Assembly: GCA_027016315.1 (NCBI GenBank)
Contig: JALWAP010000026.1
Coordinates: 1 to 45,035, forward strand
Source of the DNA: Anaerolineae bacterium
GTDB lineage: Bacteria; Chloroflexota; Anaerolineae; S016-19
Direction of reading: 5' to 3'
Length of the DNA stretch: 45,035 nucleotides
A program made the translations under genes and the position numbers. Below are positions 20,040 through 27,669 of this stretch, one piece after another; position 1 is the first letter of the stretch; each line of letters opens with the position of its first letter. The notes below the pieces were generated by a model. It searched no databases. It had not been told where the DNA came from and worked only from the letters and a program-made list of their open reading frames with translations.

Positions 20040-23000
20040 ATGGAAAGTGAAAATAGCCGGTTCCTGGAGAGGTTCACCGATTGGTTGGAGAAGAAGGGCG
20101 GTTCCAAGTTCCTTGGGGTGCTGATTCCTGTTTTGTTGATAATCAGTCTGCTCCTTCCCCCCATTTCCCTTGGGGCGAGGGTCGTTTCTGCCGGGTACAG
20201 AAGCATTCCAGCCAAGTCCGGCGGCGGAGTCGCGGACCCCGACGGCACGCAGATTACGTTCCCTGCAGAGGGCCTGAGCGGGAATATCCGCGCCAAGCTT
20301 TCTTCCATCCCACGGGAGGTTTTCCTGAAACGGGAGGATGATAAGGATCTGCGCAAGGCTGCTTCCTCGATCCCTGACACAATTGTGATGAAGAGCCCCC
20401 TGTATCGGCTTTCCATCAAGGGCCCTGCTCCGAAGAAGATCGTGATCTCCGTGCCGATTCCAAACAACTCGGAGCCTTTCGAAACCTTGGACCTGTACGC
20501 GTGGAACGGATCCAAATGGCTTTGGATGCCGAGTAAGCTAATTAAGGAAGACGAGGTTCTCGAATCGCACCTCGGTGCGCCCGTTGAGTACTTCGCCGTA
20601 TTTCAGACGAAACGCCAGCCGCAGATGGCAGGCTTGTTCTGGGGCTCGAAAAGCGGGGTCCCTGCAAAGGGGGCTTCTGTGTTGAGTTACGTCTTCCCTC
20701 TCAGCTACTCCCTTAAAGACGATCAGGGCGACTTGAAGACCGACTTTTCGCCGGACGAGCTTTCCAAAGCTGAGAATGCGTCTTACACCGTCGTTCCGGT
20801 CGTCAGAAACTGGCAGGCCGGCAAGGAAGGTGGGGTGGCGCTGGTTCGAACCGATTTGGTAGATAACACCTTGAAGTCGGAGAAAGCCAGCAAGCAACTG
20901 ATTGGCAACATCGTCGATCTCACGGTGGGTGGTCTGTATCCGGGCGTGGTGCTGGATTTCCGGAATGTCGATGTTAACCTGAGGGGGGAGTTCTCCGCTT
21001 TCGTGAAGTCCCTGGCGGAGGCACTCCACGCCAAGAACAAGCAACTTGCCGTCCGCGTCGATACGCCCAGGCAAATCGCCGAGGACAGGTTCGAGACGGG
21101 TGCGTATGATTGGACGGTGATAGGCGAGGCGGCTGATACGGTCATAGTAGATGCTCCGGTCGATCCTACGGCGTACAAACCGGATGGTCACATGGATCAG
21201 CTTGCTATCTGGAGCGTGGGGCACGTCCAGCGACAGAAATTGCATTTCGTCTTGCCTGGTCGGAGTGTGGAAAGGGCTGGAAACTATTACCTGCTCCTTC
21301 CGTACGAAAAAGCAGTGCTTCCCTTGCTCGGCAAGGTCAAGGTCGAGGGAGACGAAAAGCCGGGGGCACAGGTGACGGTTTCCATGCAGTCTGACCGGAT
21401 CGTCTCTCCGCTTCAACTTGATTCCACTCTGCACCAGAAGTGGTTTGCATACAAGGACAACAGCGGTAACGAGCGCATAGTGTGGCTGGAAGATGCCGAA
21501 AGCCTTCAGTACAAGCTTTCGTTGATCAGCCGCTACAACATCAACGGCATCGATCTCGATAACCTTCCTGGCGGTTCTGGTTCCGATATCCCTGTGTGGA
21601 GCCTTCTGGAAGCTTTCGTCAAGGATAAGCTCGACAAGTTTGCGGTGTCCGAGCCTGTGGAGGTTGTGTTCAAGGTAAAGGACGGGGACAAAGTCGTGGC
21701 GACTGCGAAGGCCAACATTCAGAACCCTAAGGCCACGCTCAAGCTCCCGGACAAGGTGGAAAATGGGTTGAGCGTGGAGGCATCGGTGGCTGTGGGCGAT
21801 GCAGTCGTGAGCGCTCCGGTCTCGGCGAAGCTGGCCGTTGCTGCCTCCCCCGCGCAGGAAAAGCAGAATTCGCCTTCGCCTAATCCTACCCCGTCGCCCA
21901 CGCCGACTCCAGAGGCCTCTTCTTCGCCGGTCTTGACCACGGAAGACCCGATCAACCTCCGATCCGGTCCTGGGACTGCGTATCCCGTCAAGGGGAAGAG
22001 CAAGCCTGGGAAGGAGTACAAAATCGTCGGCAAGAACAAAGATGGCACGTGGTGGCAGATCGAAGTTGATGGGCAGAAGCTTTGGATATCTGCCAAATAC
22101 AGCAAAGCCACCGGCGATCTGACCCAAGTAGCAGTGGTCAAGAACATTCCGAAGCCTCCGGCCCGACCGGTTACCGCTCCGGTGTCCCATGCTGCTGCAG
22201 GCTTCTTCGACTATGGGATTCAGGCCCATATGGTGGACAACAACCAGGCCCCCAGGGTAATGGCGGCGATCAACGACCTGGGATTCCACTGGGTCAAGCA
22301 GCAGGTCGAATGGAAGCGATTCGAGCCGAGCAAAGGCAACTATCAGTGGGGCCCGCTTGATTACATCGTCAATGTGGCACAGCAACACGGCGTGAAGGTG
22401 ATGTTCAGCGTGGCGAAGGCTCCTCGCTGGGCTCGTCCTGCGAACGCGGACTTCAGCGTGGAAGGGCCTCCTTCCAACCCGAAGGACTTCGGGGATTTCA
22501 TGGGCGCTCTGGCGAAGCGGTATTGCGGGCGTGTTGGCGCCGTGGAGGCGTGGAATGAGCAGAACATCAACTACGAGTGGGGTAACGAGCCTCCTGATCC
22601 AGGAAGGTATGTTCAATTGCTTGCCGCCGCATATCGTGCCGTCAAGGCAGCGTGCCCGCAGATGATCGTGATCAGCGGTGCTCTGACCCCTGCGGGTAAC
22701 GTCACCATAGGAGGACAGTGGCGTGCGGTGGACGATGTCAATTACCTGACCGCCATGTACCAGCATGGTCTCAAGAACTACTGCGACGCCGTGGGTGCCC
22801 ACCCAAGCGGCTTCAACGTGGCTCCGTGGGTCCACGGTGGAGCGGAGGCGTGCCAGTTCATCACTCAGCGGCACGCCAGGTTCCGCGGACCGTGCAATTC
22901 GCCGCACCATTCCTGGAGCTTCAGGAGCACCATGGAAATGTACAGGAACGTGATGGTTCGGTTCGGCGATGCGAACAAGCGGATATGGCCTACAGAGTTT

Positions 23001-23252
23001 GGCTGGGCGTCCAGTGATACCCCGGCTCCTGGGTACGAATACGCCGCAGACAATTCGAGGCAGGATCAGGCGGAATGGACTGTCAAGGCGTACCAGATGA
23101 TGAAAGCCTGGGGCTGGGTAGGTGTGGCGTTCCTCTGGAACCTGAACTTTGCTGTTGTCGCTCCTGGTTCTGAGATGGCGCAATGGGGAATCGTGGATCC
23201 GGCATGGAATCCGTATCCGGTGTACCTGGCTCTCAAGAGCATGCCTAAATAA
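20040..23252 (+). CDS. Large multidomain surface protein: N-terminal TM, ZU5-like region, GH18-like TIM-barrel region, P/T/S linker, SH3b domain, C-terminal GH5/GH39-clan-like glycosidase domain
   Basis: [30 protein letters not shown] and [13 protein letters not shown] (GH18-like); [18 protein letters not shown] linker; [40 protein letters not shown] (SH3b); [11 protein letters not shown]...[20 protein letters not shown]...VEAWNEQN...WPTEFGW. Confidence 0.85.
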
Positions 23253-23317
23253 CCAGGAGCTTTCTGCAGGCGCGGAAAGGTGGGTTCTTTTCGCGCTTGC
23301 TTTTTGGAGAGGGAAAG

Positions 23318-24730
23318 ATGAAAAACGTCAAAGCAATGTCTCTGGCAGTCGTGCTGGCAATCTTGGTGAGTTCGTGCACTTTTCCTGCAGGAATCACTCC
23401 CAGGTCCGCGAGCCCTACGGCAAGCGCGACCCCTACCCGCACTGTGACTGTGGTACCATCTCCAACTATGAGGCCTGCTACAGCGACTTTCACGTCGGAG
23501 CCGTCGGCCACTCCGTCGCCAACGCCTGCGCCCACCGATACGGCGACTCCCTCGCCGTCTCCGTCGGCCACCAGCACGAACACCCCAGTGCCTCCGTCGC
23601 CAACGCCGAAGCCTACCGCGGTACCGCCCACGCCCACAACAGTTCCGGCGGGAAATCCTGGAATCCCGTTTGGGGATGTGATGACTTCTCCGGACTATGG
23701 GGTACAGGCGTTTCTGTGGTGGCGTCCTGGCATAGCGGATAGGGACCTGGGGTTGATCAAGGACGCTGGTTTCCGATGGGTCAAACAATGGTTTGCCTGG
23801 AAGGACATAGAGATTGCTCCGGGGAAATATGATTGGTCGCACGCCGATAGGATAGTCAAGCAGGCACACGACGAATTCCAGTTGAAGATTCTGGCGCGCA
23901 CCGATAGAGCTCCGGCGTGGGCTGGCGAGCCTCCCGATGACGCCCAGGCCTATGCCAATTTCCTTCATGCCCTGGCGTCCAGATATCGGGGGAGGATTCA
24001 GGCATATCAGGTGTGGAACGAGCCAAACCTCGCCAGGGAGTGGGGAGGAAAGAGGCCCGACCCTGTTGGTTATGCCAGGATGTTGAGGCTTGCGTATCAG
24101 GCCATCAAGAGCGCCGATCCTAATGCTATTGTGATTAGCGCGGGGATGTCTCCCACTGGCACCAACGATCAGACTGCCATGCCCGATGACCTTTACATCG
24201 AGAAGCTCTACCAGGCTATGGGGAACAACAGCGACGGGTACTTTGATATGCTGGGGGTTCACGCAGCGGGCTACAAGGCTCCGCCTGAGCTCGATCCGGC
24301 GGAGGCGAAAGCCAACAAAGCGCTCTATGGCGGCGAGCGGTTCTTCTGCTTCAGACACGTGGAGGACATTCGTAAGATAATGGTAGCCCATGGAGACGCC
24401 GGAAAGCGAATTGCAATCTTGGAGTTCGGCTGGACCAGCGATAAAGTGCATCCTTCCTACAGCTGGCATGCGGTATCGGAACAACAGAAAGCCGATTACA
24501 TCGTCCGGGCGTTCAAGTGGGCGAAAGAGCATTGGACTCCCTGGATCGCGGTAATGACGTTGATATACATGCCGGATTCCGACTGGACCGAGCAAGATGA
24601 GCAGTACTGGTGGTCTATCACAAGGCCGATGAAGATCAACGAATGGAAACCACTTCCGGCTTACATTGAAGTGTGTGAGTACCTGAATTCCTTGAAAGGA
24701 CAGAGATGTCCTAAGGCTCCAAAGGGCTAA
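23318..24730 (+). CDS. Lipoprotein glycosidase-like protein, paralogous to the C-terminal domain of the preceding gene
   Basis: Lipobox [10 protein letters not shown]; long S/T/P linker; [12 protein letters not shown]...[26 protein letters not shown]...[15 protein letters not shown]...[11 protein letters not shown]. Confidence 0.87.
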
Positions 24731-24846: not shown

Positions 24847-24875
24847 TTGACATGCGGTTGTATTCTCAATATAAT
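24847..24875 (+). promoter_or_regulatory. Perfect-consensus sigma70 promoter for Liv operon 1
   Basis: TTGACA (24847-24852), exactly 17 nt, TATAAT (24870-24875), 190 nt upstream of the binding-protein ATG. Confidence 0.85.
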
Positions 24876-25065: not shown

Positions 25066-27669
25066 ATGAAGTCCAAGAAGCTGGTTTTTCTGATGAGTGT
25101 CCTTGTGATACTCTCCATGGTTCTGGCTGCATGTGGGCCTAAGGCTACTCCTACGAAGGCTCCTGCGCCGACGGAAGCGCCGGCTGCAACGAAGGCCCCT
25201 GCACCGACGAAGGCTCCGGCGGCTACCAAGGCTCCTGAGCCGACCAAAGCCCCGGTTGCTAAGTTCAAGTGCACCGACAAGCTCGGCTGTGTGGATGTAG
25301 GGCCGGGCGATCCGATCAAGATTGCCATCATGGCTGTGCTCTCCGGCCCGAATGCCTCGCTCGGTGAGGACACGGTGCATGGCGTCGAGATCGCGGTGGA
25401 CGATGTCGGTGGCAAGATTCTCGGCCATCCCATCGAGCTGGACAAAGAGGACTCCCAGTGTTCGCCTGAAGGTGGTCAGGCAGCGGCGCAGAAAGTGGCG
25501 GCTGACAAGAGCATCGTGGGTGTGATTGGGACGAACTGCTCCAGTGCAGCGAAGGTGGCAGCTCCGATCATCTCCGATGCGGGGATGGTGATGATCTCCC
25601 CGTCGAACACAGCTCCTTACCTGACCGATCCAAAGACCCATGTTCCTGGGTACTTGAGGACAGCGCACAACGACCTGTTCCAGGGCTCGCTGGCTGCTGA
25701 GTTTGCGTACAAGGTGCTTGGCAAGAGGAAAGCGGCCACTATCCATGACGGGAGTGTGTACGCGGAGCAGTTGGCGAACGTGTTTGCGGACACGTTCAAG
25801 AAGCTTGGTGGGAAGGTAGTGGCGCAGGAAGCAGTGAACGTAGGGGATACGGACATGAGGCCGGTGCTGACGAGGATAGCGGCGCAGCATCCGGACTTCA
25901 TCTACTATCCGATCTTTGTGGCTGAGGGTGGGTTCATCACCCGGCAGGCGAAGGAAGTAGAGGGGCTGCAGAACGTAGCGCTGATGACGGCAGATGGGTG
26001 CTTCAGTGCGGACTTTGGTAAGGCGGCTGGAGATGCGGCTCTTGGGATGTATCAGAGTGGGCCGTATGTGACTGGTAAAGCCTACCAGGAGTTCTTGAAG
26101 AAGCACAAGGCCAAGTACGGGACGAACCCGCCGAGTGGCTTCCATGCCCATGCGTACGATGCCACCATGCTGCTCATCAATGCCATCAAGAAAGTGGCTG
26201 TCGTCGAGAAAGACGGTACGGTTCACATCCCGCGCCAGGCTTTGCGTGATGCGTTGTTCCACACCAAGGATTACCATGGTCTGACCGGTACGCTTTCGTG
26301 CAACCAGTACGGCGACTGCGCTACCGGTGAGGCGCTGGCAATCTTCCAGGTGACCCAGAAGACTCTGGACACCCTGAAGAAGACCGGCGAGTGGCATCCT
26401 GAGGTGGTCTACACCAAGAGCGGTGGCTTCGTTGGCAACAAGCAGGCTGGTGCCAACGTACCGACCGAGCCCAAGAAGGTGTCCAACTACAAGTGCACCG
26501 ACAAGCTCGGCTGTGTGGAAGTCGCCAAGGGTGATCCGATCAAGATCGCCGTCATGGCTGTGCTCTCCGGCCCGAACGCCTCGCTCGGCGAGGACACGGT
26601 GCACGGCGTCGAGATTGCTGTGGACGACCTGGGCGGCAAGATCTTCGGCCATCCCATCGAACTGGACAAAGAGGACTCCCAGTGCTCGCCTGAAGGTGGT
26701 CAGGCAGCGGCGCAGAAAGTGGCGGCTGACAAGAGCATCGTGGGCGTGATTGGGACGAACTGCTCCAGTGCAGCGAAGGTGGCAGCTCCGATCATCTCCG
26801 ATGCGGGGATGGTAATGATCTCCCCGTCGAACACAGCTCCTTACCTGACCGATCCAAAGACCCATGTTCCTGGGTATCTGAGGACAGCGCACAACGACCT
26901 GTTCCAGGGCTCGCTGGCTGCTGAGTTTGCGTACAAGGCGCTTGGCAAGAGGCGTGCTGCGACGATTCACGATGGTAGTGTGTACGCCGAGCAGTTGGCG
27001 AACGTGTTTGCGGACACGTTCAAGAAGCTTGGTGGGAAGGTAGTGGCGCAGGAAGCAGTGAACGTAGGGGATACGGACATGAGGCCGGTGCTGACGAGGA
27101 TAGCGGCGCAGCATCCGGACTTCATCTACTATCCGATCTTTGTGGCTGAGGGTGGGTTCATCACCCGGCAGGCGAAGGAAGTAGAGGGGCTGCAGAACGT
27201 AGCGCTGATGACGGCAGATGGGTGCTTCAGTGCGGACTTTGGTAAGGCGGCTGGAGATGCGGCTCTTGGGATGTATCAGAGTGGGCCGTATGTGACTGGT
27301 AAAGCCTACCAGGAGTTCTTGAAGAAGCACAAGGCCAAGTACGGGACGAACCCGCCGAGTGGTTTCCATGCCCATGCTTACGATGCCACCATGCTCCTCG
27401 CCAACGCTATCAAGAAAGTGGCGGTGGAGGACGGCAAAGGCACCCTCTACATCCCGCGGCAGGCTTTGCGTGATGCGTTGTTCCACACCAAGGATTACCA
27501 TGGTCTGACCGGTACGCTTTCGTGCAACCAGTACGGCGACTGCGCTACCGGTGAGGCGCTGGCAATCTTCAAGGTAACCCAGAAGACTCTGGATACCCTG
27601 AAGAAGACCGGCGAGTGGCATCCTGAGGTGGTCTACACCAAGTCTGGCGGCCTGGTCGGGAAGCCGTAA
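25066..27669 (+). CDS. Branched-chain amino-acid-type ABC transporter substrate-binding lipoprotein with two tandem near-identical Peripla_BP_6-like domains
   Basis: Lipobox LSMVLAACGP, A/P/T/K linker, then two ~408-aa repeats each starting (F/Y)KCTDKLGCV(D/E)V and containing PIKIA(I/V)MAVLSGPNASLGEDTVHGVEIAVDD. First gene of a liv operon. Confidence 0.95.
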   Translation: MKSKKLVFLMSVLVILSMVLAACGPKATPTKAPAPTEAPAATKAPAPTKAPAATKAPEPTKAPVAKFKCTDKLGCVDVGPGDPIKIAIMAVLSGPNASLGEDTVHGVEIAVDDVGGKILGHPIELDKEDSQCSPEGGQAAAQKVAADKSIVGVIGTNCSSAAKVAAPIISDAGMVMISPSNTAPYLTDPKTHVPGYLRTAHNDLFQGSLAAEFAYKVLGKRKAATIHDGSVYAEQLANVFADTFKKLGGKVVAQEAVNVGDTDMRPVLTRIAAQHPDFIYYPIFVAEGGFITRQAKEVEGLQNVALMTADGCFSADFGKAAGDAALGMYQSGPYVTGKAYQEFLKKHKAKYGTNPPSGFHAHAYDATMLLINAIKKVAVVEKDGTVHIPRQALRDALFHTKDYHGLTGTLSCNQYGDCATGEALAIFQVTQKTLDTLKKTGEWHPEVVYTKSGGFVGNKQAGANVPTEPKKVSNYKCTDKLGCVEVAKGDPIKIAVMAVLSGPNASLGEDTVHGVEIAVDDLGGKIFGHPIELDKEDSQCSPEGGQAAAQKVAADKSIVGVIGTNCSSAAKVAAPIISDAGMVMISPSNTAPYLTDPKTHVPGYLRTAHNDLFQGSLAAEFAYKALGKRRAATIHDGSVYAEQLANVFADTFKKLGGKVVAQEAVNVGDTDMRPVLTRIAAQHPDFIYYPIFVAEGGFITRQAKEVEGLQNVALMTADGCFSADFGKAAGDAALGMYQSGPYVTGKAYQEFLKKHKAKYGTNPPSGFHAHAYDATMLLANAIKKVAVEDGKGTLYIPRQALRDALFHTKDYHGLTGTLSCNQYGDCATGEALAIFKVTQKTLDTLKKTGEWHPEVVYTKSGGLVGKP
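25264..26487 (+). repeat. Intragenic direct repeat, unit 1 (1224 bp)
   Basis: Aligned without gaps at a constant 1224-bp offset to 26488-27666; includes a 371-bp identical block (25768-26138). Confidence 0.95.
26488..27666 (+). repeat. Intragenic direct repeat, unit 2
   Basis: See unit 1; identical block at 26992-27362. Confidence 0.95.

Follow-up and report, generated by a model that had tools for sequence, protein, structure and literature searches.

The YaaH/SleL/YdhD group of GH18 proteins (4s3k, 3cz8) and the protein 5jh8 keep the motif DxxDxDxE, which ends in the catalytic Glu. ChiW, a cell-surface chitinase of Paenibacillus (5gzt), is a large surface protein of many domains, GH18 barrels and Ig-like ones among them. 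Its barrels are active chitinases. PslG of Pseudomonas aeruginosa (GH39; 5bx9, 4zn2) is located at the inner membrane, and E165 and E276 are its key activity residues. The enzyme trims its polysaccharide, and without PslG cells are left in chains that Psl holds together (PMC9075953). The gene pslG is part of an EPS gene cluster. A number of GH18 folds have lost their activity and are reused for binding or inhibition, i.e. XIP-I/CaclXIP, concanavalin B, YKL/Ym1 and SI-CLP, mostly eukaryotic single-domain proteins. XIP from plants, an inactive GH18 fold, binds and inhibits GH10 and GH11 xylanases (PMC3045311).

The window, a stretch of 45,035 nucleotides from an Anaerolineae bacterium, encodes a 1070-aa protein joining a GH18-like to a GH39-like barrel. 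Anaerolineae are abundant filamentous bacteria of sludge and sediments, and their cell envelope and matrix are poorly known. The initial annotation did not recognise a named architecture in this combination, and neither Pfam nor NCBIfam nor the literature searched gave one; the papers searched held no account of a pseudo-GH18/GH39 fusion. The following features were assigned.

20040..23252, plus strand: membrane-anchored pseudo-GH18/GH39 fusion protein, 1070 aa (one ORF; full-length homologues)
20094..20168, plus strand: N-terminal TM anchor, aa 19-43, with an LPPIS motif at its end (hydropathy)
20199..20615, plus strand: beta-sandwich, ZU5-like in outline, aa 54-192 (AF2 strands; PF00791 not significant)
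20652..21575, plus strand: GH18/YaaH-like barrel without catalytic Glu, aa 205-512 (profile, AF2, Foldseek)
20961..20963, plus strand: codon of Arg308 at the site of the GH18 catalytic Glu (alignment to 3cz8, 4s3k, 4q6t and 5jh8; relatives)
21651..21839, plus strand: Ig-like beta domain, aa 538-600 (AF2 model; weak Big_8 match, E 0.12)
21843..21935, plus strand: Pro/Thr/Ser linker, aa 602-632 (sequence; pLDDT <50 at 602-627)
21939..22115, plus strand: SH3b domain, aa 634-692, optional within the family (PF08239)
22197..23249, plus strand: PslG-like GH39 catalytic domain, aa 720-1070, with the codons of E840 (22557-22559) and E986 (22995-22997) (profile, Foldseek, alignment)
23266..23300, plus strand: 15-bp hairpin followed by a T-run, between the fused and companion genes (such sites in the region are near chance, 6 vs 5.2)
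23297..24730, plus strand: companion gene, 477 aa, a putative lipoprotein (LVSSC lipobox) with a P/T/S linker and a second GH39 domain with both Glu (sequence, domain HMMs)

The ATG of the 1070-aa ORF is preceded by GGAGGAG, and full-length homologues with 35-64% identity establish the ORF as real. The order TM, beta-sandwich, GH18/YaaH-like barrel, Ig-like domain, P/T/S linker, SH3b and GH39, read initially from the letters, was largely borne out by profile searches, AF2 and Foldseek. A phmmer search against the PDB assigned aa 270-505 to GH18/YdhD, and aa 741-882 and 979-1067 to PslG. The TM segment holds a hydrophobic stretch from aa 24 on; under a strict pattern, its LPPIS motif recurs in 65 of 89 fused proteins and in 9/18 stand-alone relatives. 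SH3b is matched by PF08239 (SH3_3) at aa 638-688 (E 7.9e-10, 39.2 bits against a gathering score of 27), and the linker is apparent in the sequence, with pLDDT <50 at aa 602-627. The Ig-like segment is a beta domain in the AF2 model, its Big_8 match being weak (E 0.12). The ZU5 label did not hold: PF00791 matches one of eight members at E=0.18 and not the window protein, for which AF2 models a beta-rich domain. The AF2 model of the full protein (pTM 0.54) does not give a fixed arrangement of the domains, so that any scaffold geometry is speculative.

The N-terminal barrel has its nearest relatives in fold and sequence in 5jh8 and the YaaH/SleL/YdhD group. Profile matches were obtained to 5jh8 (3e-33), YdhD 3cz8 (7e-27) and SleL 4s3k. 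AF2 modelled aa 46-600 from a 20-row alignment with pLDDT 91, and Foldseek returned 5jh8 (1.4e-20), SleL and YdhD in an E range of 1e-17 to 1e-20. The (beta/alpha)8 barrel proposed for the middle region was thus recovered. A C-terminal stretch, Y.y.d..G..r.VW.E.a.S...K, is common to the barrel and these proteins. They keep DxxDxDxE, whereas this family carries Arg or another residue for the Glu and has its barrel joined to a TM segment, a beta-sandwich, an Ig-like domain and GH39. In profile alignments, Arg308 falls on the catalytic Glu of 5jh8, 3cz8, 4q6t and 4s3k. At this site, Glu was found in none of 108 non-redundant relatives, which have Arg (67), Gln (14), Leu (8), His (4), one Asp and others. 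True GH18s of the same phylum, eight controls in all, kept the Glu in 8/8. The beta6 Tyr (M-x-Y-D) is Pro373 in the window protein and Tyr in just 4/111 members, while the last Asp of DxxDxDxE is retained in 86/111; a conserved substitute carboxylate was not found in the barrel. All 111 pseudo members lie on one side of a branch in the ML tree (midpoint rooting), forming one clade with support 100/99. With the Glu at 0/108 and the beta6 Tyr mostly lost, an active chitinase barrel was rejected, and to judge from the sequences the barrel looks dead, a pseudoenzyme. The Glu loss presumably occurred independently of that in other inactive GH18 proteins, from which the Anaerolineae protein differs as a bacterial, membrane-anchored, multi-domain form. 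The "two glycosidase-like barrels" of the initial annotation are both present as folds, the first one being devoid of its catalytic Glu family-wide; only the second barrel therefore likely acts as a glycosidase.

Pfam gave weak clan-A glycosidase matches for the C-terminal third, and PF01229 matches only 4/20 members of the family. Profile searches with the GH39 domain yielded PslG (6.6e-29), 5jvk (6.3e-17) and GH39 xylosidases (1e-9). PslG (Foldseek, 1.5e-18) and other GH39 enzymes are the closest solved relatives. E840, which follows an Asn as an acid/base Glu does (NE motif), corresponds to E165 of PslG, and E986, at the site of the nucleophile, to E276; both are unchanged in 20/20 rows of the alignment. 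The two Glu residues singled out at first reading were hence the correct ones for a GH39-type catalytic domain, which in the window protein is apparently an intact polysaccharide-cutting enzyme. Both Glu are present in 80 of 86 fused proteins with readable sites. The other six (L137, L138, L142, L145, L147, L149) belong without exception to family f4 of the class and have the nucleophile Glu replaced by Ala (TEFGW to TALGY or VALGY). By their residues, both barrels of the f4 protein look dead, and the adjacent separate GH39 genes look intact. The likeness to PslG thus comprises the GH39-type barrel with both catalytic Glu aligned and a site at or near the inner membrane, predicted for the window protein from its TM segment. 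Identity is about 20%, and PslG is without pseudo-GH18 barrel, Ig or SH3b. ChiW, which resembles the protein in its multi-domain surface layout, has no GH39 and no TM anchor of this kind.

The window protein was matched in 41/41 genomes searched, its own and 40 relatives, in at least eight of them essentially full-length. When 20 aligned N-terminal halves served as query (E<=1e-35), a homologue of the N-terminal half was found in 241 of 298 sampled Anaerolineae genomes and in 159/190 good-quality ones, usually once per genome. Domain HMMs detected TM, beta-sandwich, GH18-like, Ig-like, optional SH3b and GH39 domains in nearly all complete members. SH3b occurs in 14 of 59 fused proteins from named loci, the window protein included, and forms lacking it are otherwise the same. 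Full-length homologues in many genomes rule out a one-off chimera or misassembly; the word "chimeric", initially applied to the protein, is misleading for an architecture that is old, class-wide, mostly present once per genome and accompanied by a GH39 gene. The fused protein is better seen as a conserved part of the envelope. Among 400 genomes drawn evenly from the phylum, strong matches came chiefly from Anaerolineae. Outside the class, a few families had strong matches, some had shorter stand-alone relatives, and the rest were mostly partial; the eight partial matches examined were true GH18s. When about 85,000 species genomes were scanned with a peptide pattern derived from the family, 66 loci came up, all with Chloroflexota titles and mostly Anaerolineae; absence outside Chloroflexota is not proven by this, as the pattern is biased towards the family. 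A plasmid collection gave weak matches to the GH39 part only and none to most of the protein.

Stand-alone proteins, mostly of 550-640 aa, consist of TM and pseudo-barrel without GH39 and occur in other families and classes of the phylum. In the ML tree they cluster together and, with midpoint rooting, form the sister group of the fused proteins. Of 12 genomes with such proteins, 9 lack any GH39 match at 1e-5. The pseudo-barrel core thus probably has a role independent of GH39. Stand-alone genes (L117-L128, L105) often lie beside RsmD-, CoaD-, GreA- and LysS-like genes, and several immediately follow a gene for an HtrA-like protease, all of these neighbours being named from a reading of their sequences.

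The companion GH39 gene is located 44 bp downstream of the fused gene, the ATG at 23318 being the likely true start. Its product carries a signal peptide with a lipobox Cys (VLAILVSSC); among orthologues, some show the lipobox pattern and others a plain hydrophobic segment. The hairpin at 23266..23300 is a possible terminator or attenuator. One or two same-strand GH39 genes follow downstream in 40 of 59 fused loci (named loci), a count including three loci where the fused protein itself comes next, as another full-length copy; several of the rest stop at contig ends. Both Glu are kept in 88/90 separate GH39 domains. Only GH39 genes recur beside the fused form, no other gene family being widespread across loci, and a pslG-like EPS-cluster gene is not supported. 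L101, L102 and L104 encode a pseudo-barrel protein without GH39 domain, with two separate GH39 genes directly downstream. Simple gene fission was rejected for these loci, since their relative L106 keeps a fused GH39 domain and has both separate genes as well, which makes it more likely that the fused domain was lost. Tandem same-strand pairs of the full-length fused protein were observed at L070 (4595-10844), L072 (4759-10805) and L074 (4611-10832). The source genome holds nine GH39 matches, i.e. several paralogues. One other GH39 protein of this genome (L155, 1103-2878, G000:C27) carries an N-terminal WYVVKPGNTLSQISHRY, which reads like a LysM motif.

We lean towards a membrane-tethered retaining endo-glycosidase that would act outside the cell membrane on a polysaccharide of the cell's own envelope or matrix, the dead barrel serving for binding or as a scaffold. 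The TM segment would hold the protein at the membrane, and beta-sandwich, dead barrel and Ig domain would form a stalk, of which the barrel would bind a glycan or partner without cutting. SH3b would bind the wall. On its long linker, the GH39 domain would trim a beta-linked polysaccharide, with E840 as acid/base and E986 as nucleophile, together with the co-encoded lipoprotein GH39. The role in the wall or exopolysaccharide suggested in the initial annotation is plausible; the safest wording is a conserved glycosidase of the envelope, putatively anchored in the membrane, whose GH18 module is non-catalytic. By analogy with PslG, the preferred inference for Anaerolineae is that a polymer of the envelope or sheath would be trimmed in a comparable way. 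We favour housekeeping envelope or sheath remodelling over a PslG-like coupling to one EPS gene cluster, because the locus is without conserved EPS-synthesis neighbours. Usually single-copy and found in about 80% of sampled class genomes, the protein offers a good handle on such remodelling. The long-conserved dead GH18 barrel, joined to or beside apparently live GH39s, is a testable bacterial pseudo-glycosidase with a retained job.

The dead barrel may instead be a regulator or inhibitor-type module over its own and neighbouring GH39 enzymes, the membrane protein being mainly a scaffold and the separate GH39s doing the cutting. XIP makes this a serious rival, as it demonstrates that a GH18 barrel without activity is able to bind another glycosidase (PMC3045311), although we consider it unlikely. 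It would accommodate the six f4 proteins with E to A exchange beside intact GH39 genes, as well as L101, L102 and L104, where the pseudo-barrel precedes two GH39 genes. Catalysis in cis is, given the f4 proteins, not the universally conserved trait. However, nine of the twelve genomes with stand-alone pseudo-barrels have no GH39 match, so that GH39 cannot be the sole partner, and AF2 predicts no fixed contact between the barrels. The wider form of the idea is more doubtful still: a pseudo-chitinase barrel, membrane-held in most class members, acting in trans as regulator or scaffold for GH39 hydrolases, with one lineage having become a double pseudoenzyme beside intact GH39s. If true, it would be an independently evolved bacterial counterpart of the inactive GH18s that bind other glycosidases.

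Anaerolineae are often heterotrophs, and a secreted-type enzyme that degrades external polysaccharides for food (necromass, plant or algal glycans) and uses the barrel as a carbohydrate-binding stalk would agree with this general knowledge, with the frequency of SH3b and P/T/S linkers among secreted hydrolases and with the GH39 paralogues per genome (nine matches in the source genome). We regard it as improbable: sugar transporter or utilisation genes are not conserved beside the fused gene across loci, and the usual single copy class-wide fits housekeeping better than a niche enzyme. A bifunctional enzyme, in which the GH18-like barrel is catalytic via a migrated residue, could draw on the intact fold and the last motif Asp in 86/111 members; it is highly improbable, since Glu was never found and is mostly replaced by Arg, the beta6 Tyr is mostly lost, and the search for a conserved replacement carboxylate came up empty.

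Further downstream in the window, an 867-aa lipoprotein-like ORF (25066-27669, plus strand) encodes two tandem Peripla_BP_6 domains of the branched-chain amino-acid type. Its halves are 94% identical over 1121 nt, so that either the ORF was duplicated internally not long ago or the repeat is an artefact of assembly. A perfect TTGACA-17-TATAAT promoter-like site (24847-24875, plus strand) is located about 190 bp upstream of this ORF.
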